A DNA stretch of 23,730 nt from positions 1 to 23,730 of the IMG/VR virus record IMGVR_UViG_3300037961_003393. The stretch is one strand, 5' to 3'. How positions within the stretch are numbered: the first letter of the stretch is position 1; the number at the start of each line of letters is the position of its first letter. The notes under the pieces were generated by a model. That model worked only from the letters and a program-made list of their open reading frames with translations, had not been told where the DNA came from and searched no databases. Shown here piece by piece: positions 1,215 to 19,862 of the stretch. Made by a program: the position numbers and the translations under genes. The DNA comes from a virus.

Positions 1215-3392
1215 ATGCTACAGAAAATAGGCTTTCAACCAGGATTTAATAAACAAGTTACAGAAACCACAGCTGAAGGACAATGGGTTGATGGTGACAA
1301 TGTAAGGTTTAGATATGGTACACCCGAAAAAATAGGTGGTTGGCAACAGTTAGGAGAAAGTAAACTAACTGGTTCTGCAAGAGCCTTGCACCATGTTGTA
1401 AATAAATCAGGAAATAAATTTGCAATCATTGGTACTAGTAAAATTTTATATGCTTATACAGGTGGTGTTTTCTATGACATACATCCAATCAAAACAACTA
1501 CAACGTTAACAAATGCATTCACCACGGTCAACGGATCAACGTCTGTTACAATTACTTTTTCAACATCACATGGCATTCAAGAAAAAGATATTGTTTTATT
1601 AGATACTTTTTCTACTATAACTAATTCAAATTTTGGTGCATCTGATTTTAATGATAAAAAATTTATGGTTACATCTGTACCAACAGATACAACCATTACC
1701 GTTACAATGCCATCAGCTGAAACAGGTTCAGGTGCAACAACATCTGGTGGTATAAGAATTAGACATTATTATCCTGTAGGACCTTCAGAACAACTACCTG
1801 GTTTTGGTTGGGGATTAGGTCAATGGGGTGGTACTGTATCAGGTGAAGCGACAACTACTTTAGTTGGTTCAATCAACGCTGTTCAAACAACAGGTATTCA
1901 ATTAACTGATGTATCACAGTTTCCTGATTCAGGGACCAATCACGTTCAAATAAATAACGAAGAAATTTCTTATACAGGTATAACTGGAAATGAATTAACA
2001 GGTGTTACAAGAGGTGTTAGAAACACTACAGCCACAACTCATACAACAGGTGATACGGTAACTAACTCATCTGATTATATTGCTTGGGGTGAAGCAGCAT
2101 CTGGAGATTTAGTTATAGATCCAGGTTTATGGAGCATAGATAATTTTGGAGATAAAATTATTGCACTAATACACAATGCACAAGTATTCGAATGGGATTC
2201 AAACGCAGCAAATGCAGTGACAGTTAGAGCAACTATTATATCTGGAGCACCAACAGCTTCACGTGACATGTTGGTATCTACACCTGATAGACACTTAGTA
2301 TTCTTTGGAACAGAAACAACAATTGGAGATTCAACAACACAAGATGAAATGTTTATTAGATTCTCGGATCAAGAAGATATTAATACTTACGCACCAACCG
2401 CTATCAATACAGCAGGTACTCAAAGACTTGCAGATGGATCTAAAATAGTAGGTGCAGTTAGAGGTAGAGATGCAATCTATGTTTGGACAGATACATCTTT
2501 ATTTACTATGCGTTTCATTGGTCAGCCATTTACTTTTGGTTTTGCACAAGTAGGTACTAACTGTGGATTGATTGGTCAGAATGCAGCATTAGAAGTTGAT
2601 GGTGCAGCTTATTGGTTTTCAGAAAACGGTTTCTTTAAATACTCTGGTAATTTAGAAACAATGATATGTTTAGTAGAAGACTTTGTATTTAATGATTTAA
2701 ATACAACAGCTAATCAATTAATTAATGTTGGATTAAATAATTTATTTGGTGAAATAACATGGTTCTATTGTTCTAATGGTTCTACTGTAATTAATAAATG
2801 TGTCACATATAACTATCTAGACTCTAGTCCACAAAGACCTGTTTGGACAACGGGAACTTTATCTAGAGGAACTTGGAAAGATTCTTCTGTGTTTGGTTTA
2901 CCACACGCAACAGAATTTAACGCTTCAGATAATACATCTTTTGATGTAGTTGGTAATACCGATGGTAGTTCAATTTATTACGAACATGAAAAAGGAACTG
3001 ATCAAGTAAAAGGTGGTACAACAACAGCTATTGCTGCAAATATTCAATCGGGGGACTTTGATATTACACAACAAAGAAGTGCCTTGGGTCAAGCATCAGG
3101 GATTGCAACATTTAGAGGAGATGGTGAACATGTAATGAAAATTAGAAGATTTGTACCAGATTTCTTATCTCAAACAGGTAACACTCAAATAACTTTAAAT
3201 TTACGTAATTATTCAAACGATTCTAAATCAAGCTCACCACTTGGACCCTTTACAATTACATCATCTACTAGTAAAGTAGATACACGTGCAAGAGCAAGAG
3301 CTGTATCTCTTAAGATAGCAAATACAGGTACTTCTCAAAGTTGGAAACTAGGGACATTTAAATTGGATACACAACCAGACGGAAGAAGATAA
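1215..3392 (+). CDS. Large virion structural protein (stabilisation-protein-like)
   Basis: A 725-residue, beta-rich, Thr/Ser/Gly-rich protein without signal peptide or membrane segment. The N-terminus (MLQKIGFQPGFNKQVTETTA, then WVDGDNVRFRYGTPEKIGGW) matches from memory the start of large structural proteins of many marine podovirus contigs. These are often annotated as related to the P22 gp10 packaged-DNA stabilisation protein, which closes the portal channel. Two inserted beta modules are visible. One at about 95-165 is rich in TTxTVTMP-type strands. One at about 215-285 carries an EISYTG...LTGVTRG motif typical of virion decoration or adhesin modules. The start is set by the conserved N-terminus, although no normal ribosome site precedes it. 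The stop overlaps the next start (TAATG at 3390-3394). The exact role, head-tail connector or tail hub, is inference. Confidence 0.6.
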   Translation: MLQKIGFQPGFNKQVTETTAEGQWVDGDNVRFRYGTPEKIGGWQQLGESKLTGSARALHHVVNKSGNKFAIIGTSKILYAYTGGVFYDIHPIKTTTTLTNAFTTVNGSTSVTITFSTSHGIQEKDIVLLDTFSTITNSNFGASDFNDKKFMVTSVPTDTTITVTMPSAETGSGATTSGGIRIRHYYPVGPSEQLPGFGWGLGQWGGTVSGEATTTLVGSINAVQTTGIQLTDVSQFPDSGTNHVQINNEEISYTGITGNELTGVTRGVRNTTATTHTTGDTVTNSSDYIAWGEAASGDLVIDPGLWSIDNFGDKIIALIHNAQVFEWDSNAANAVTVRATIISGAPTASRDMLVSTPDRHLVFFGTETTIGDSTTQDEMFIRFSDQEDINTYAPTAINTAGTQRLADGSKIVGAVRGRDAIYVWTDTSLFTMRFIGQPFTFGFAQVGTNCGLIGQNAALEVDGAAYWFSENGFFKYSGNLETMICLVEDFVFNDLNTTANQLINVGLNNLFGEITWFYCSNGSTVINKCVTYNYLDSSPQRPVWTTGTLSRGTWKDSSVFGLPHATEFNASDNTSFDVVGNTDGSSIYYEHEKGTDQVKGGTTTAIAANIQSGDFDITQQRSALGQASGIATFRGDGEHVMKIRRFVPDFLSQTGNTQITLNLRNYSNDSKSSSPLGPFTITSSTSKVDTRARARAVSLKIANTGTSQSWKLGTFKLDTQPDGRR

Positions 3393-4636
3393 TGGCAACA
3401 AGATATGATACAAGATATGGATTAAGTCAGCCTATAGTTAATTATTTAAATTTAGGTTTACCAGATATTTCTGGTATTCTTGGCACACCTCAAGCTTTAG
3501 CACTTGCAGCAGAAGAAGAAGTAGCTGCTTCAAGTTCACCTCAAATAATTTATTCTCAAGAAGGTAGAGTTGGTGATGGAAGTTTTAATCCGTATACTAT
3601 GGGAGCAGGTGATCTTGGTGTTAGAGGACCTGATAATTATAGTCCTTATAGTGCTAGAAGATTAACAGACAAAGGCAGCACCGCTTTAGCTTTATATCCA
3701 GAATTTTATTATCCAAAAGGAGTTACAGATACAGGAATAATGGGAGCATATAAACAATTTAGAAAATCACCTAAATCTCTACAAGCAGGTATGTTTGGAT
3801 TAAATTTATTAAGTGGAGGAAAATTACTTCCTGCCGCAGCTGGAGTAGTAGCAGCTGGAGACGTTCTAGGAGGTTTACTTCCTGTAAGTAAAAGAGGTAT
3901 AGTTGAGAATCAACTATTAGGACAAGGAATTTCATTAGATAATATTGGTAGAGTTGTTGGTGATCCAAATACAGCTGAAGGTATTATGGCAGGTTATAAT
4001 GCATATCAAATAGATAAAGGAACTTTTGATAAAAGAAGAGCAGGAATTATGAAAGGATTAATGAAAACTAATCCTGAAGCAGCTAAAAAAAGACTTGCTT
4101 TATTAGATGAAGCAGAAGCAAAATTCTTACAAGCAAATAAAATAGGTGATGCATTATATACTGAGAAAATGTCTGCCAAAGACCCTAATTACAAAGTAGA
4201 TGATGACGAAGATAAGGATAGAGCGTTTAAAGAAGCACAAAAAGAAACTTCTGGTATTATTCCTTTTGGACCAAACCCTGCTTTTTATGCAAGTCAAAGA
4301 GGTGGTATTATTCCTTTTGGACCAAACCCTGCTTTTTATGCAAGTCAAAGAGGAAAAACTACAGGAACAAGAATTCAACCAGGATCAGGAAGACAAGTTT
4401 TACCTGGTGGTAAAAAAATACAGGACAAGAGAAGAGACAAAGGTCCGAGTCCTATAAATATTCAAAAGAAAAAAATAGGTATGCCTGAAAATTTAACTTA
4501 CAATCGTAGAAGAGATAATAGTTCACCAAAACCAAATCGACCTGGTGGTAAAAAAAGTGGAGCTAAAAAAAGTAAAGCTCCAGCAAAAACAAGTCAAGGA
4601 CTAACGTCTGCACAACACAGTGCGTTTAGAAGATAA
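3392..4636 (+). CDS. Unknown virion-module protein with 17-residue tandem duplication and basic tail
   Basis: I do not recognise this 414-residue protein. It starts in a TAATG overlap with the gene before it, so it is probably translationally coupled. Residues about 130-170 form a hydrophobic Ala/Gly/Leu-rich stretch (LLSGGKLLPAAAGVVAAGDV) that could insert into a membrane or pack as a hydrophobic helix pair. Residues about 205-270 are charged and helical. A perfect tandem duplication of 17 residues (GIIPFGPNPAFYASQRG twice) follows at residues 288-321. The last 90 residues are strongly basic (KKIQDKRRDK, YNRRRDN, GGKKSGAKKSKAPAK), as expected for a nucleic-acid- or capsid-interior-facing tail. 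Position suggests an internal or ejected virion protein. This is inference only. Confidence 0.6.
   Translation: MATRYDTRYGLSQPIVNYLNLGLPDISGILGTPQALALAAEEEVAASSSPQIIYSQEGRVGDGSFNPYTMGAGDLGVRGPDNYSPYSARRLTDKGSTALALYPEFYYPKGVTDTGIMGAYKQFRKSPKSLQAGMFGLNLLSGGKLLPAAAGVVAAGDVLGGLLPVSKRGIVENQLLGQGISLDNIGRVVGDPNTAEGIMAGYNAYQIDKGTFDKRRAGIMKGLMKTNPEAAKKRLALLDEAEAKFLQANKIGDALYTEKMSAKDPNYKVDDDEDKDRAFKEAQKETSGIIPFGPNPAFYASQRGGIIPFGPNPAFYASQRGKTTGTRIQPGSGRQVLPGGKKIQDKRRDKGPSPINIQKKKIGMPENLTYNRRRDNSSPKPNRPGGKKSGAKKSKAPAKTSQGLTSAQHSAFRR
4253..4354 (+). repeat. 51-bp in-frame tandem duplication
   Basis: Two adjacent 51-bp units (4253-4303 and 4304-4354) differ only at their last base (GGT versus GGA, both Gly). 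They encode GIIPFGPNPAFYASQRG twice. Near-perfect DNA identity means a recent duplication or strong homogenisation. Confidence 0.95.
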
Positions 4637-12667: not shown

Positions 12668-13078
12668 ATGACAAATCTTATAAATACTTTCCTAAATAGT
12701 TCAATTGGTTTTGATCCATTCTTTGATGGATTTGATAATTGGATTACACCAAGATCAGGTTTTCCTTTTTACAATATAAAAAAAGAATCTGATAAAAAAT
12801 ATGTAATAGAAATGGCTTTAGCTGGTTTTGCTAGAGAAGACATTGATGTCAGTCAAACAGACGAGATATTAACTGTCGAAGCTTCTGAACATATTAAAGA
12901 AGAAAAACAAAAACCTGAAGATTATATTTCAAAAGGTGTATCAAAAAGATGGTTTAAAAAACAATTTCAACTAGCAGATACAGTTGAAGTTAAAAAAGTT
13001 AAACTTGAAAATGGTATGTTGTGTATTCATTTAGAAAACAATAGACCATCAAAAGATAAGACTTTTGATATAGATTAA
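12668..13078 (+). CDS. hsp20: Small heat-shock protein, Hsp20/IbpA-like
   Basis: A 136-residue small heat-shock chaperone that would hold unfolding proteins in an ATP-independent way. The alpha-crystallin domain spans about residues 33-125, with YVIEMALAGFAREDIDVSQ, then the IbpA-type GVSKRWFKKQFQLAD strand and the diagnostic ENGMLCIHLE near the end. The C-terminal IxI anchor is replaced by a FDI-like end (KTFDID). A strong GGAGG ribosome site (12658-12662) sets the start. The gene has its own predicted promoter just upstream and is convergent with the SNF2 helicase gene, overlapping it by four bases. Phage-borne Hsp20 genes are well known in marine T4-like cyanophages and also occur in other marine phages. 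The likely role is support of virion protein folding or of host fitness in infection. Confidence 0.92.
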   Translation: MTNLINTFLNSSIGFDPFFDGFDNWITPRSGFPFYNIKKESDKKYVIEMALAGFAREDIDVSQTDEILTVEASEHIKEEKQKPEDYISKGVSKRWFKKQFQLADTVEVKKVKLENGMLCIHLENNRPSKDKTFDID

Positions 13079-14511
13079 ATCCAGTCTTTTAAATCTTCAC
13101 CCATGATCTCGTTGGCGATATTTACTTTATTACGAAGAGCTTTGACGATTCTATCATCAACAGTATCTTCTGAAATAATGTCGATGTAGGTCATGGGTTT
13201 TGTTTGTCCAATACGATCTATTCTAGCTTCTGATTGTTGTCTCTTCTCTAAATCATAACCATTTGAAAAATAAATCATTGTACTCGCTGCAGTCAATGTG
13301 ATACCATACCCGCCTGTGTGAGTGGTACCTACAAAAAATCTACACTTGTCATCATTCTGAAATTTCTTTATATTAATTGACCTTTGATCTTGGTCAGTTT
13401 CACCAAAATAATCTACAACAGAATCTTCTCCATATTTATTTTTTATCTCTTCAATAATTCTTTTTACATCATGAGTGTAGTGTGACCAAATAACAGCTTT
13501 ATTATGTACATTATCTAATATGTCCATAAGTTCTACAACTCTATTACAAGGTAAATTTTTTATAACACCATCATCAGCTGTGAAATGACCACAAGTAATT
13601 TGATGCAGTCTCATTAATTGAGTCATCACAGTTGCAGAAGATAATACTTTACCATCAAGAAAAGCAATAGCTTCTTCTTTCATTTGTTTATAAACTTTTT
13701 TCTGTTCTTTTGTTAATTCAACAACATGTTTTAAGAAAGTCTTTTTAGGTAAATCTAAACAATCATCTTTTAATACTCGTTTAGAAAATGGTTGTATTTT
13801 TTCTGATAGTTCTCCAAGATTCCTGTAACCTACAACTATTTCTACTTGTCTACCATGAGCTTGTATTTTTCTAGTTACTGCATAACGAGACTTGAATGTC
13901 CAATAAGAAGAATGGCCCAGGAGCCAGGGATCAAGGAACTCACATTGACTAAACAAATCTAGTGGTGATTTGGTTACAGGAGAACCTGTTAGAATTCTCC
14001 TGTATTTAGCCATGTCTCTCAGCGCAATAATATTTTTAGTTCTTTTAGTCGTAGGTGTTTTGATAGTGGTTGATTCATCAATCGCTATCATTGCTTTGTG
14101 TGCGGATAAAAACTTACGAGCAAATATAGGGCCATCACTAGATGAGAAAGCTTCAACATTCATTAATAAAATATGAAACTCACTGCCCGTTTCAAACAAA
14201 GTATTTAAAATCTTTTTTTGTTTTTGTGATTTATCTGATGTCTTCCATAAAACAGTTTTTCTAAAAATATAGTCTGGTAAATGTGTTGGTATTTCTGAGT
14301 CATACCAATTTTTATAAACACCTTTTGGTGCAATAATTAATAATCCGTTTATTAATCCTTTGTTATAAAGAACAGCAGCGTTATCTAAAAGAACTTTAGA
14401 TTTACCTGTACCCATCTCCATGAAATAGGCAAAATTTTCTTTATCACAAGAATCTTGTAATGCATCCAATTGATGCTTATATGGTGTTGTCTTAAACTTA
14501 TAGTTTATCAT
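13075..14511 (-). CDS. SNF2-type SF2 helicase/ATPase
   Basis: A DNA-dependent ATPase of helicase superfamily 2, 478 residues from the ATG at 14511. That start has an AAAGAGG ribosome site and the conserved MINYKFKTTPYKHQLDAL opening; a longer frame to 14580 lacks these and would cross the promoter. Walker A is MGTGKS (33-38), motif II is DEST (145-148), motif III is LTGSP (173-177) and motif VI is about 424-436 (QSEARIDRIGQ, with arginine finger). The RIGQ ending and the two-lobed layout identify the SNF2/Rad54-like group. In phages such proteins are thought to remodel DNA-protein complexes or drive branch migration during replication and recombination. It is the only minus-strand gene, divergent from 14574-14912 and convergent with hsp20. 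All motifs look intact. Confidence 0.9.
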   Translation of the reverse strand: MINYKFKTTPYKHQLDALQDSCDKENFAYFMEMGTGKSKVLLDNAAVLYNKGLINGLLIIAPKGVYKNWYDSEIPTHLPDYIFRKTVLWKTSDKSQKQKKILNTLFETGSEFHILLMNVEAFSSSDGPIFARKFLSAHKAMIAIDESTTIKTPTTKRTKNIIALRDMAKYRRILTGSPVTKSPLDLFSQCEFLDPWLLGHSSYWTFKSRYAVTRKIQAHGRQVEIVVGYRNLGELSEKIQPFSKRVLKDDCLDLPKKTFLKHVVELTKEQKKVYKQMKEEAIAFLDGKVLSSATVMTQLMRLHQITCGHFTADDGVIKNLPCNRVVELMDILDNVHNKAVIWSHYTHDVKRIIEEIKNKYGEDSVVDYFGETDQDQRSINIKKFQNDDKCRFFVGTTHTGGYGITLTAASTMIYFSNGYDLEKRQQSEARIDRIGQTKPMTYIDIISEDTVDDRIVKALRNKVNIANEIMGEDLKDWI

Positions 14512-14523
14512 AATATATACCTC

Positions 14524-14551
14524 TTTACTTTGCTTTCTAAGGATGTATATA
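14524..14551 (+). promoter_or_regulatory. Weak plus-strand promoter sharing a -10 with the divergent gene
   Basis: TTTACT (14524-14529), a 16-base spacer and TATATA (14546-14551) would serve the 14574 gene, which has an AAAGG ribosome site near 14559-14563. The same palindromic TATATA is the -10 of the minus-strand promoter. The -35 matches consensus only partly. Confidence 0.35.
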
Positions 14552-14574
14552 TGAACAGAAAGGTAAAAAGTCAA
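14546..14574 (-). promoter_or_regulatory. Sigma70-like promoter for the SNF2 helicase
   Basis: Read on the minus strand: TTGACT (14574-14569), a 17-base spacer and TATATA (14551-14546). Transcription would start near 14539, about 28 bases before the ATG at 14511. The -35 box overlaps the start codon of the divergent gene at 14574. Confidence 0.6.
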
Positions 14575-14912
14575 TGGCAAAAGTTTATTTAGTACAGGAT
14601 ATTCCTGTAGATAGAGAAACAGGAAAACCTAAATTTGATATAACGCCTGCAATAAAATATGGCGAAATTAAGATTATGTTTCCTAGGTTGAAACAAATGC
14701 AGTTCTCACCAGGGCCTTTAATAATAGAAATAAAGAACAGTTTAAAAGATTTTACATCAGAAGATTATTTATTATTATATGGAGATCCAGCTCTCATAGG
14801 AGTTGTATGTTCTGTCGCAAGCGATATTACAAATGGAAAATTTAAATTTTTAAAATGGGACAGAATACAATCAGGTTATTACCCAATAGAAATAAATCTT
14901 TTTCAAAAGTAG
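14574..14912 (+). CDS. Unknown protein, divergent from the helicase
   Basis: This 112-residue protein mixes beta strands and short helices: AKVYLVQDIPVDRETGKPKF, YGEIKIMFPRLKQMQF, PGPLIIEIKNSLKDF, EDYLLLYGDPALIGVVCSVA and NGKFKFLKWDRIQSGYYPI. It is cytoplasmic in character and lacks Cys clusters or catalytic signatures. I recall similar short proteins near replication genes of marine phages, without a known function. An AAAGG site lies about 10 bases upstream. It shares a 62-base divergent control region with the helicase, and its stop is directly followed by the promoter at 14913, so it may be expressed separately from the replication operon. Confidence 0.65.
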   Translation: MAKVYLVQDIPVDRETGKPKFDITPAIKYGEIKIMFPRLKQMQFSPGPLIIEIKNSLKDFTSEDYLLLYGDPALIGVVCSVASDITNGKFKFLKWDRIQSGYYPIEINLFQK

Positions 14913-16397: not shown

Positions 16398-18020
16398 GTG
16401 AAAGATTTTATAAAGTATTTTACAGGTTTAACACGTAATTATGGTGTCTGTAAAACAGATCAAGGTTATGTAGATCAAGAAACAGGAAAGAAAAAATTTA
16501 AACATGAATGGTCACAAGAAAAAATAACAAACAAAGATTATGAAGACCATTTAAAAGGAACCAAATCAATTGGTGTTCAACCGTGCACAGATGAAGGACT
16601 AGCTAGATTTGGTGCAATTGATGTAGATAAATATCCAATAGACAGAGAATTTTATTTAAGAACAATCCAAGAAAAAAATTTACCAATCATCCCTATCCTT
16701 TCCAAAAGTGGTGGACTTCATTTATATGTGTTCACCACTGAATTTGTAAAAGCGATAGAGATAAGACAATTTTTGGAACAGATGCTTTATGTGTTTAAGT
16801 TGTCTATAAAAACAGAAATATTTCCAAAACAAACAAACTTAAGATCTTCAGATGAAGAAGGAAACAAAACTAATGGTAACTTCATAAACTTACCTTACAA
16901 CGGAAAAGACAGAAGAGCATTAACACCTGATGGAAAAGAAATGGAATTAGATTTGTTTTTAAAATGCATAGAATTAAATGCAGTAAGTAAAAAACAATTA
17001 AAAGATATACAAGAAAAAATTATATCAGATGAATTAAAAGGTAGTGGACAAGAATTTGAAGATGGTCCACCATGTTTAGGAATTCTTACAAAAGAAATAA
17101 TGGAAGATGATAGAGATAGATTTTTATATAACTACATGGTCTTTGCAAAGAAAAAATATAAAGATAATTGGAAAGATAAAATAGTAGAAGCAGCTAGAAA
17201 TTATTTTAAGTTTGACTCAAAATGGACAGATGATCATGTTAAATCTAAAATTAAAAGTTGGGATAAGGAAACAAAAGGTTATCAATGTAATGGAGAATTA
17301 TTGTCTCCTGTATGTGTCAAACCAGTTTGTTTAAAAAGAAAGTTTGGAGTTTTGTCTGATGATAAACCATCGTGGCCTAGAATATATGCATTACAAAAGA
17401 TAAATTATAAACCAACTCCTGAATGGAAATTTACTGTTGAAAGAGATGATGGAGAAACAGTTCAAGTTCATGCAAAAGATATTTATAAATTAGAAAGTCA
17501 AAAAGCATTGAGAGCACTATTGATGGAACAAGCATTTGTAGTTCCACCAAATATAAAAGGTAACGACTTTATAGAAATAATGAAACTATTGTTCGATAAA
17601 GAAAAAGTAGAAACAATAGAACCTGCAGCAGGAACCAGTCCTACAGATATGTTACAGAAACACTTAGAAAAATATATTTATGGTCCAAAAGCAACCACAT
17701 ATAAATCTTTTGAAAGTGGTAAACCTTTGATTGATGATCAGTATGCATGGTTTGTTTACGATGAATTTTATGCGGATTTAAAAACTAGAGAATGGAAAAC
17801 AGATCCACAAAGAACATCATACATGATAAAAGAATTATTCAAAAGTGAAGATAAAGAAAAGAAAGCTTTGTTTAATAAACCAAAAAGATTTCCAGGAAAA
17901 AATTCAGATGGAGAATATTTTCCTCCAATAAAAGTTTTAAGAGTTCCTTTATATATTTTTGAAGAAAGAAAAAATGTTAAAGAAATAATAGACTTTGAGG
18001 ACGAAGACGACATTATATGA
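16398..18020 (+). CDS. AEP-type DNA primase with PriL-like cysteine domain
   Basis: A 540-residue archaeo-eukaryotic primase/prim-pol that would make primers for the phage polymerase. The catalytic core is residues about 1-190: motif I IDVD (D75, D77), motif II SKSGGLHLY (S102-Y110, H108), and motif III EIFPKQ (E140), followed by GNFINLPY. This arrangement fits the AEP clade that includes TOTE-type primases. A helical domain follows at about 215-315, opening GPPCLGIL and closing YQC...PVC...PVCLKRKFG, with cysteines 226, 297, 306 and 311. It looks like the Fe-S C-terminal domain of the primase large subunit PriL; a zinc site is the alternative. The rest has no helicase motif and ends in an acidic DEDDII tail. 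The start is GTG at 16398, as a stop at 16380-16382 excludes upstream starts. Its ATGA overlap couples it to the SF1 helicase. Confidence 0.85.
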   Translation: MKDFIKYFTGLTRNYGVCKTDQGYVDQETGKKKFKHEWSQEKITNKDYEDHLKGTKSIGVQPCTDEGLARFGAIDVDKYPIDREFYLRTIQEKNLPIIPILSKSGGLHLYVFTTEFVKAIEIRQFLEQMLYVFKLSIKTEIFPKQTNLRSSDEEGNKTNGNFINLPYNGKDRRALTPDGKEMELDLFLKCIELNAVSKKQLKDIQEKIISDELKGSGQEFEDGPPCLGILTKEIMEDDRDRFLYNYMVFAKKKYKDNWKDKIVEAARNYFKFDSKWTDDHVKSKIKSWDKETKGYQCNGELLSPVCVKPVCLKRKFGVLSDDKPSWPRIYALQKINYKPTPEWKFTVERDDGETVQVHAKDIYKLESQKALRALLMEQAFVVPPNIKGNDFIEIMKLLFDKEKVETIEPAAGTSPTDMLQKHLEKYIYGPKATTYKSFESGKPLIDDQYAWFVYDEFYADLKTREWKTDPQRTSYMIKELFKSEDKEKKALFNKPKRFPGKNSDGEYFPPIKVLRVPLYIFEERKNVKEIIDFEDEDDII

Positions 18021-19444
18021 TATATAAATACTTTGGTCCTCCAGGCACAGGAAAGACACATAAATTAATTAGCAGGGCAAGAGCTTATGTAAGAATTGGA
18101 ACTAAATTAAATAGAATAGGTTATTTTGCTTTTACAAAAAAAGCTGCAGAAGAGGCTAGAAAAAGAATGCCTACGGATGATAACAAGCTTTTATATTTTC
18201 AAACATTACATTCTTTTGCATTTAATTTATTAGATTTAAAAGAAGAAGATATTATGCAACCTTATCATTATGAAAAATTTGGAAAGGATTTAAATGTTAA
18301 GGTCAACTACTATGACAGGTACAATAAAGAAGAGACACATTTTTTAACCTGTGATAATCCATACTTTCAATTAATACATAGATCCATAAATAGATGCGTT
18401 GATATAAGAGAAGAATTTGATCGAGGAGAGCATAACTCAAAAGAAGTTGATGATTGGACTATGTTGGAACACATTCACGCTAATTATTTAGAATACAAAC
18501 AAAAGAAAAAAATGATGGACTTCAACGATATGATTGAACTCTTGATAGAAAAACAAGATAAAATACCTGAGTTTGATGTGATATTTATAGATGAAGCACA
18601 GGATTTATCTCCACTACAGTGGAAACTATATGACATTTTAAAACAAAAAAGCAAAGATGTTTATCTTGCAGGAGATGATGACCAAGCTATTTTTGCCTGG
18701 GCTGGAGCTGACGTATCAAGATTTATAAACGAACCTGCAAAAGAAAAGGTATTAATATATTCAAAAAGAATATCTAAATCAGTACAAGAACAATCTCAGT
18801 CATGTATAGAAAACATTATAGGACCTAGAAAAATTAAAAAATATTATCCAAGAAATTTTGATGGTGTGTGTGAAGAGATTTCAAACTTAGATCAAATTGA
18901 TTTAACAAAAGGTAAATGGTTAATATTAACCAGAACAGTATCTAGATTATTAAAGATAGAAGATTATCTAAGAAAAAATAATTTATATTTTGAAAGTAAT
19001 CGAGGCAGAAGTGTTAAGAAAGGATTATACAAAGCTGTTAAAAATTATGAACTTCTTCAAAAAAATATTAAACTAGAAGAAAACGATATGAAAGACATAA
19101 CAGAATACTGTGGAGATAAAATTAATTATAAGAAAGATTGGTATCACTCTTTTCAAAATGTAGAACAAGATGATAAAGATTATTTACTCGGGCTTCTGGA
19201 ATCAGGGGAAGATGTAGAAAAACCTGCAAGAATATGGTTGTCAACTATACATGCAGCAAAAGGTGGAGAACAAGACAATGTAATTCTTTGTTTAGACATG
19301 GGTAAAAAAATATTAAAAGCAATTAAAAAAAGTCAAGACAAAGAAGATGAAGAACACAAAGTTTGGTACGTAGGAGTTACCCGTGCCAAAAATAATTTAT
19401 ACAAACTAAAAGCTAGAATAAAAAGAAAAGGTTACAAATTATAA
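18017..19444 (+). CDS. UvrD/Rep-like SF1A DNA helicase
   Basis: An ATP-driven DNA helicase of 475 residues, likely 3'-5', that would unwind DNA for the phage polymerase or in recombination. Motif I is GPPGTGKT (7-14), Ia is FAFTKKAAEEA, II is IDEAQD (D192-D196), III is GDDDQAIFAWAGAD (from 219), V is STIHAAKGGEQDNV (from 409) and VI is YVGVTRAKNNL (from 451). All motifs are intact. It is shorter than cellular UvrD (about 720 aa) because the 1B/2B insertions are reduced, as usual in phages. It starts in an ATGA overlap with the primase gene, so primase and helicase are translationally linked. With no DnaB-like gene seen, this may be the main replicative helicase. Confidence 0.93.
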   Translation: MIYKYFGPPGTGKTHKLISRARAYVRIGTKLNRIGYFAFTKKAAEEARKRMPTDDNKLLYFQTLHSFAFNLLDLKEEDIMQPYHYEKFGKDLNVKVNYYDRYNKEETHFLTCDNPYFQLIHRSINRCVDIREEFDRGEHNSKEVDDWTMLEHIHANYLEYKQKKKMMDFNDMIELLIEKQDKIPEFDVIFIDEAQDLSPLQWKLYDILKQKSKDVYLAGDDDQAIFAWAGADVSRFINEPAKEKVLIYSKRISKSVQEQSQSCIENIIGPRKIKKYYPRNFDGVCEEISNLDQIDLTKGKWLILTRTVSRLLKIEDYLRKNNLYFESNRGRSVKKGLYKAVKNYELLQKNIKLEENDMKDITEYCGDKINYKKDWYHSFQNVEQDDKDYLLGLLESGEDVEKPARIWLSTIHAAKGGEQDNVILCLDMGKKILKAIKKSQDKEDEEHKVWYVGVTRAKNNLYKLKARIKRKGYKL

Positions 19445-19608
19445 TGAATTTATACTTAAAGTATAAACCGATTGGGATAGAGAACATTTTTCCGTGGCAA
19501 GTGGCAGTGTCATGCTTTAAGCGACGTTGGTTCGGATTTCTCGAATCCCATTTCATAGATCAATCAACCGTTAAACCAACAACTGCCACAAAAAAAGGAG
19601 ACTTATGA
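19444..19608 (+). CDS. 54-codon ORF in a structured region (tentative)
   Basis: A 54-residue frame (starts MNLYLKYKPIGIENIF, centre SCFKRRWFGFLESHF, end TTATKKGDL) fills the whole gap between the helicase and the DUF3310 gene. It starts in a TAATG overlap (19442-19446) and stops in an ATGA overlap (19605-19608), which is the local signature of a real gene. Its codons (CGA, CGT, CCG, CTC, TCC) are unlike the AGA-rich neighbours, and it covers a perfect palindrome and a nested pair of 7-bp stems. The sequence may therefore be constrained as RNA rather than as protein, or as both. No family is recognised. The residues are basic and aromatic without membrane segment. Confidence 0.45.
   Translation: MNLYLKYKPIGIENIFPWQVAVSCFKRRWFGFLESHFIDQSTVKPTTATKKGDL
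19449..19467 (+). repeat. 19-base perfect palindrome after the helicase gene
   Basis: TTTATACTT (19449-19457), one A, then AAGTATAAA (19459-19467). As RNA this forms an 8-bp hairpin with a 3-base loop. There is no U tract after it, so it is not a standard terminator. It could be an operator, an RNA processing site or part of the structured region that follows. Confidence 0.75.
19501..19589 (+). promoter_or_regulatory. Nested stems upstream of the DUF3310 gene (RNA-like structure)
   Basis: GTGGCAG (19501-19507) pairs perfectly with CTGCCAC (19583-19589). Inside it GTTGGTT (19526-19532) pairs perfectly with AACCAAC (19574-19580), and GGATT (19534-19538) pairs with AATCC (19544-19548). The AAAGGAG ribosome site of the next gene follows directly. 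A second GTGGCA lies at 19494-19499 as a tandem partner. The 7-bp outer stem recalls a tRNA acceptor, but no D- or T-arm fits, so I do not call a tRNA. Confidence 0.5.
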
Positions 19609-19862
19609 CAAACAAAGATATATTTAAAGATGTGTTCCCACAAGATAAACAGATAGGCGGGAGTCACTATAAAAATTTTCGTATTCAGCCATACGAATTT
19701 ATTTCAAAGAATGATTTATCATTCTTCCAGGGCAACGTTGTGAAATATGTTTGTAGATATTTACACAAAAATGGTATAGAAGACCTGGAGAAAATCAAAC
19801 ACTATTGTGATTTAGAAATTAAAAAATTGAAAGATATAGGAGGAAAGAAAAATGGCATATAA
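19605..19862 (+). CDS. DUF3310 family protein
   Basis: An 85-residue protein with the clear DUF3310 pattern: GGSHYKNFRIQPYEFI near the start, FFQGNVVKYVCRY in the middle and GIEDLEKIKHYCDLEIKKL at the end. This small family is widespread in phages, often next to nucleotide-metabolism or replication genes. Some members are annotated as nucleotide-kinase-like, but the sequence holds no P-loop and the function is unknown. A strong AAAGGAG site sets the start. Its end overlaps the next gene by 11 bases. Confidence 0.85.
   Translation: MTNKDIFKDVFPQDKQIGGSHYKNFRIQPYEFISKNDLSFFQGNVVKYVCRYLHKNGIEDLEKIKHYCDLEIKKLKDIGGKKNGI

Follow-up and report, generated by a model that had tools for sequence, protein, structure and literature searches.

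Small protein, folded RNA or both

The short segment between a UvrD-like helicase gene and a DUF3310 gene in a viral genome raises the question of whether its bases encode a small protein, a folded RNA or both at once. The segment lies in an IMG/VR virus record of 23,730 bases, referred to here in its full length as the window, whose replication genes are similar to those of the pelagiphages HTVC027P and HTVC023P. The original prediction had pointed to a palindrome, two perfect stems and a small inner hairpin within a 54-codon reading frame, and had proposed either dual coding or an undescribed phage RNA element. The features of the locus are as follows.

18017..19444, + strand: UvrD-like helicase gene (Pfam UvrD-helicase, E 1.6e-29); its stop codon precedes the RNA
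19444..19608, + strand: 54-codon reading frame that crosses the RNA and is coupled to both neighbouring genes; interpreted as passenger translation
19449..19467, + strand: hairpin P0 (the 19-base palindrome), accessory, behind helicases ending xYK*
19466..19592, + strand: structured RNA element, match of covariance model R1 (107.4 bits, E 3.4e-25; the window was among the sequences used to build the model)
19474-19589, + strand: paired core of the RNA element
19474..19483, + strand: helix A 5' strand, GGGATAGAGA; 0 of 20,000 permutations as stable in the partner-swap test
19501..19507, + strand: helix B 5' strand, GTGGCAG; relatives show the double changes CG/UA and GC/CG
19514..19522, + strand: hairpin C, GCTTTAAGC in the window; double changes at all four pairs in relatives
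19526..19535, + strand: helix D 5' strand, GTTGGTT plus a CGG extension; double changes at three pairs, one-sided changes at three
19538..19549, + strand: helix A 3' strand, TTCTCGAATCCC; lies in the B-D hairpin loop and forms the pseudoknot
19568..19580, + strand: helix D 3' strand, CCG, a UUA bulge and AACCAAC
19583..19589, + strand: helix B 3' strand, CTGCCAC
19594..19600, + strand: AAAGGAG, putative ribosome-binding site of the DUF3310 gene, by sequence; outside the paired core
19605..19862, + strand: downstream DUF3310 gene (Pfam DUF3310, E 3.4e-12); the gene at this place differs among relatives

The palindrome and both stems were present as predicted. The palindrome, TTTATACTTAAAGTATAAA (19449-19467), is perfect over its 19 bases around a 1-nt centre, and the window has only two such inverted repeats with arms of 9 nt. 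Helix B pairs perfectly, to 8 bp with the flanking T/A, as do GTTGGTT (19526-19532) and AACCAAC (19574-19580). The 95-nt core (19498-19592) folded at -26.0 kcal/mol compared to -15.3 kcal/mol for its shuffles (z -3.67), none of 200 shuffles being as good; the entire 181-nt stretch by itself gave a weak folding signal (z -1.36). The GC content of the RNA core was 0.45 compared to 0.33 for the window. The reading frame was also coupled on both sides as described, overlapping the helicase stop (TAATG) and the DUF3310 start (ATGA). ARAGORN found 0 tRNA or tmRNA genes in the window. Elsewhere in the window, a 414-aa ORF (3392-4636) contains a tandem duplication of approximately 17 residues, GIIPFGPNPAFYASQR occurring twice, back to back.

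Relatives of the element

The starting set consisted of loci encoding relatives of the DUF3310 protein, in which the gap before the gene was inspected; most had no element and about ten had one. In close helicase relatives that have no element, the helicase stop overlaps the DUF3310 start. A pattern search with helix B added about 80 contigs. A covariance model of helices B, C and D alone, based on 20 sequences, gave 10 matches among 80 DUF3310 loci plus the window, and matched 15/80 helicase loci plus L158 as well as members of further sets; its E-values are rough because the calibration was shortened. Twelve pattern matches, L126 and L134 among them, were judged by eye not to be relatives. 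In these two IMG/VR contigs, an unrelated inverted repeat (GTGGCAGGTGGCAG ... CTGCCAC) flanks a GTGCGC-rich core resembling a long hairpin.

The resulting family comprises 119 distinct sequences in 42 clusters at 80% identity, all from uncultured viral contigs, which are metagenomic and often short. The element is approximately 125 nt long, and its carriers are mostly relatives of HTVC023P-type pelagiphages, ocean phages that infect SAR11; it was not found in the isolate phages HTVC023P and HTVC027P or in phage 023Pt_psg01. A single copy per genome was present in 19/19 carriers (7/7 and 12/12 records, a weak match of E 0.39 in HTVC027P being counted as none in the former). Its distribution is patchy: when 96 helicases were placed on a tree, of which 30 have the RNA and 66 do not, at least eight changes of presence, gains or losses, were required.

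Searches of Rfam 15 returned no match at the gathering score and nothing meaningful up to E 10, for the window segment or for seven elements, and no known ribozyme family was matched in them. Four element queries found no relative in 50,697 GenBank phage records, and two exact pattern scans found none in bacterial genomes; one bacterial match (L525, Candidatus Microthrix) had no model match and was attributed to chance. An attC-like recombination site and a tRNA remnant were suggested by motif likeness, and no support was found for either. No description of the element was found in the openly licensed literature.

Covarying helices and a pseudoknot

Helices B, C and D covary, with 67 double-change cells compared to 14.5 after shuffling. 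In the model alignment, which was fitted to these helices and is therefore biased towards them, 98.3% of the B, C and D cells were paired and double changes occurred at 9/18 pairs; the pairing signal was lost when the partners were slid by one column. G-U pairs are common in helix D (19/52 rows at one pair), which points to an RNA rather than a DNA structure. Invariant unpaired bases were also apparent on sequence comparison. The loop of hairpin C is UAAC, GCAA or UUCG in relatives. A contact between the UAAC loop and the UUA bulge of helix D was considered and dropped because many relatives with GCAA or UUCG loops still keep the bulge.

The predicted small inner hairpin did not hold up: taken alone, TCTCGAATCCC (within 19538-19549) looks like one side of it, but it pairs instead with GGGATAGAGA at 19474-19483. 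This helix A, overlooked in the original prediction, joins the 5' strand GGGAUAGAGA to the loop UCUCGAAUCCC and gives an H-type pseudoknot. Since it is absent from the covariance model, helix A was tested free of any alignment by swapping partners between clusters. Native duplexes had a mean of -14.8 kcal/mol compared to -11.8 kcal/mol for swapped ones, and 0/20,000 permutations reached the native value. In the divergent elements L416, L461, L437, L466 and L434, no swapped partner equalled the element's own helix A. Compensatory changes occur across distant relatives, as measured by shuffling, by sliding the partners and by partner swaps. The palindrome is a separate hairpin (P0) retained in one clade only, where relatives keep a 6-9-bp stem despite altered sequence and loop.

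Judged from sequence comparison, the segment belongs to a structured RNA family with covarying helices B, C and D. The suggestion of an undescribed phage RNA element is supported by this covariation, by recurrence in several gene contexts and by absence from Rfam. The original prediction had looked to near relatives for conservation of either the stems or the frame, and by that measure both survive.

Genomic placement

In nearly all cases with an identifiable upstream gene, the element begins 1-23 nt past a stop codon on the same strand; in one exception, L470, the stop was placed 14 nt inside the element. Most upstream genes encode UvrD-like helicases, and others an SNF2-like helicase, a PD-(D/E)XK nuclease-like protein or other products; several sites adjoin replication genes. 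Behind the SNF2-like gene the next gene, where found, is convergent, which can leave the RNA in an ordinary 3' UTR. The single copy in the window lies behind the UvrD helicase, and other phages carry the RNA at the 3' end of the SNF2-like gene, whose homologue in the window is at 13075-14580 on the minus strand.

In the window the element precedes the putative ribosome site of the DUF3310 gene, but the family has no tie to that gene: its downstream genes are varied and unrelated, or convergent. A consistent class of same-strand downstream gene, which a riboswitch or other 5' regulator would be expected to have, was not found. In L255 and its relatives L051, L066, L061 and L068, short genes lie between the RNA and the DUF3310 gene: one for a 26-aa membrane-like peptide (MKILTSDIF...) and a 50-aa ORF, into which the passenger frame of L255 continues in frame. 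Away from the UvrD and SNF2 sites (L470, L472, L480 and L432), the RNA is often near HNH or endonuclease VII-like genes, with an Endonuclease_7 match in L472. Such neighbours might hint at the route by which the RNA moves.

An open frame through the RNA

In clusters whose next gene is co-directional, at least one forward frame was free of stops through the whole RNA in 35/35, compared to 16.0 expected from dinucleotide shuffles; because a close downstream gene is unconfirmed for L158 and L461, which are counted here, the contrast rests on 33 firm clusters and these two. In contrast, clusters at operon ends, where the next gene is convergent, were open in 2/7 compared to 3.4 expected, these seven being few and, like the rest, sharing ancestry. 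The chance that all five closed clusters among the 42 would be at operon ends is 21/850,668, approximately 2.5e-5, a figure that serves as a guide only because the clusters are related. Among elements examined later, 13/13 co-directional ones were open, including three new clusters (L510, L495 and L514), and one of two before convergent genes was closed. Only one of 82 distinct UvrD-labelled elements lacked an open frame, and it was not a cluster representative.

As expected of a small protein gene, an in-frame ATG lies between -20 and +13 nt from the upstream stop in 34/35 co-directional clusters, and the open frame usually terminates near the next start codon. However, no purifying selection on amino acids was detected: the synonymous fraction was 0.22 compared to 0.27 expected, and variable sites were spread evenly over codon positions (53/45/40) with no excess at the third. 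The register in which a given RNA helix is read varies from group to group, and the passenger peptide had no Pfam or PHROG family. The proposal of dual coding was half correct: a frame is open in every co-directional cluster, but the peptide has no sign of amino-acid selection, no constant register and no family. These findings show that what is preserved is the openness of the frame, not the peptide. The simplest cause would be avoidance of an untranslated stretch inside an operon.

Discussion

The account that we favor, tentatively and with a probability of about 0.42 for the whole, is that of an accessory phage RNA of approximately 125 nt, pseudoknotted, whose copies inside operons are kept translatable. 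The RNA would be transcribed within the mRNA of the preceding gene; in its fold, B and D would form a long hairpin carrying C as a side hairpin, with the terminal loop pairing back to the 5' strand through helix A. It would be an accessory, single-copy RNA gene that came to lie right behind stop codons. The open frame would allow ribosomes that have finished the upstream gene to re-initiate and travel over the RNA. An untranslated gap, prone to Rho-dependent termination, polarity and mRNA decay, would thereby be avoided and the next gene would stay coupled; if the frame serves ribosome passage in this way, the peptide would be a by-product. The RNA may then be processed out of the mRNA and act as its own molecule, probably bound to a protein or RNA of the host or the phage. 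A trans-acting accessory RNA would fit the loose neighbourhood, the single copy and the patchiness, and it is the loose neighbourhood that suggests action in trans. Against this account, a fold with a function sits awkwardly with the passage of ribosomes, which should unfold the RNA. Moreover, most copies lie behind one type of gene, so a link of the RNA to that gene is possible.

An alternative is a cis-acting role in the 3' UTR, in which the knot would shield the end of the upstream message, often that of a helicase, from exonucleases or would set a processing point. The position 1-23 nt behind a stop codon and on the same strand, in nearly all cases, speaks for it, as do the copies between convergent genes, which are true 3' UTRs. 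We nevertheless consider it unlikely, since the upstream genes differ, each genome has a single copy, close relatives manage without the RNA, and the conserved detail appears to go far beyond what a simple stabiliser would need.

A self-cleaving ribozyme that cuts the transcript between genes is improbable. A compact pseudoknot with invariant unpaired bases, in a phage setting and with no fixed gene partner, would suit one, and its class would be one that Rfam does not hold; but the element matches no listed ribozyme, and cutting would uncouple the very genes whose coupling the open frame seems designed to preserve.

Less probable again is a 5' regulator of the downstream gene, either a riboswitch or a leader-peptide control whose ORF, when translated, would melt the knot. 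The course of the ORF in operons, from the upstream stop usually to near the next start, is as such a control would have it, and the ribosome site of the next gene begins within approximately 10 nt after the fold. That site, however, is unpaired in the fold, the downstream genes are unrelated, and the copies at operon ends, including those behind SNF2 with a convergent next gene, do not fit and do not keep the frame.

An ordinary small phage protein gene with incidental stems has its ATG and open frame in 34/35 co-directional clusters to recommend it, and is already contradicted, to the point of being very improbable, by the covarying helices, the differing registers, the codon-position and synonymous counts, the closed frames at operon ends and the lack of a protein family. 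Equally improbable is a DNA-level site for origin, packaging or recombination, whose hairpins would act as DNA: inverted repeats, a single copy per genome and the replication genes beside several sites would suit it, but the strand is fixed relative to the upstream gene, G-U pairs are common in helix D, the element has a pseudoknot, and near relatives have no element.

An undescribed RNA in many relatives of pelagiphages could bear on how these phages handle SAR11 cells. The family also offers a natural experiment, the same RNA having an open frame in operons and a mostly closed one at operon ends, so the cost of an untranslated RNA in a phage operon is directly testable.

Comparison with known systems

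The processive-antitermination RNAs EAR and put are structured RNAs inside an operon or a phage early transcript, and the element resembles them in this. In contrast to them, it also occurs at operon ends, ahead of a convergent gene, a position in which antitermination would serve no purpose, and it has no Rfam match. An H-type pseudoknot a few nucleotides past a stop codon recalls the readthrough and frameshift pseudoknots of the MuLV gag-pol and antizyme type. Stimulation of readthrough or frameshifting was rejected because the frame that stays open is a different one from the zero frame and changes phase from one group to the next; it also has an ATG of its own, and most clusters at operon ends have it closed. 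The structured RNAs described from phages and marine metagenomes, GOLLD among them (PMC2864571, PMC12286853), are likewise phage-carried and of unclear function, but the element is much smaller, has a different fold and shares no sequence match with them. The text of a survey of 104 motifs makes no mention of a helicase. The manA and wcaG motifs, from marine samples and cyanophages, are also marine phage RNA motifs and appear to regulate downstream genes (PMC2864571), whereas the gene downstream of the element is not constant. That phages carry structured RNAs is already known; what is new is this RNA family and its passenger frame.
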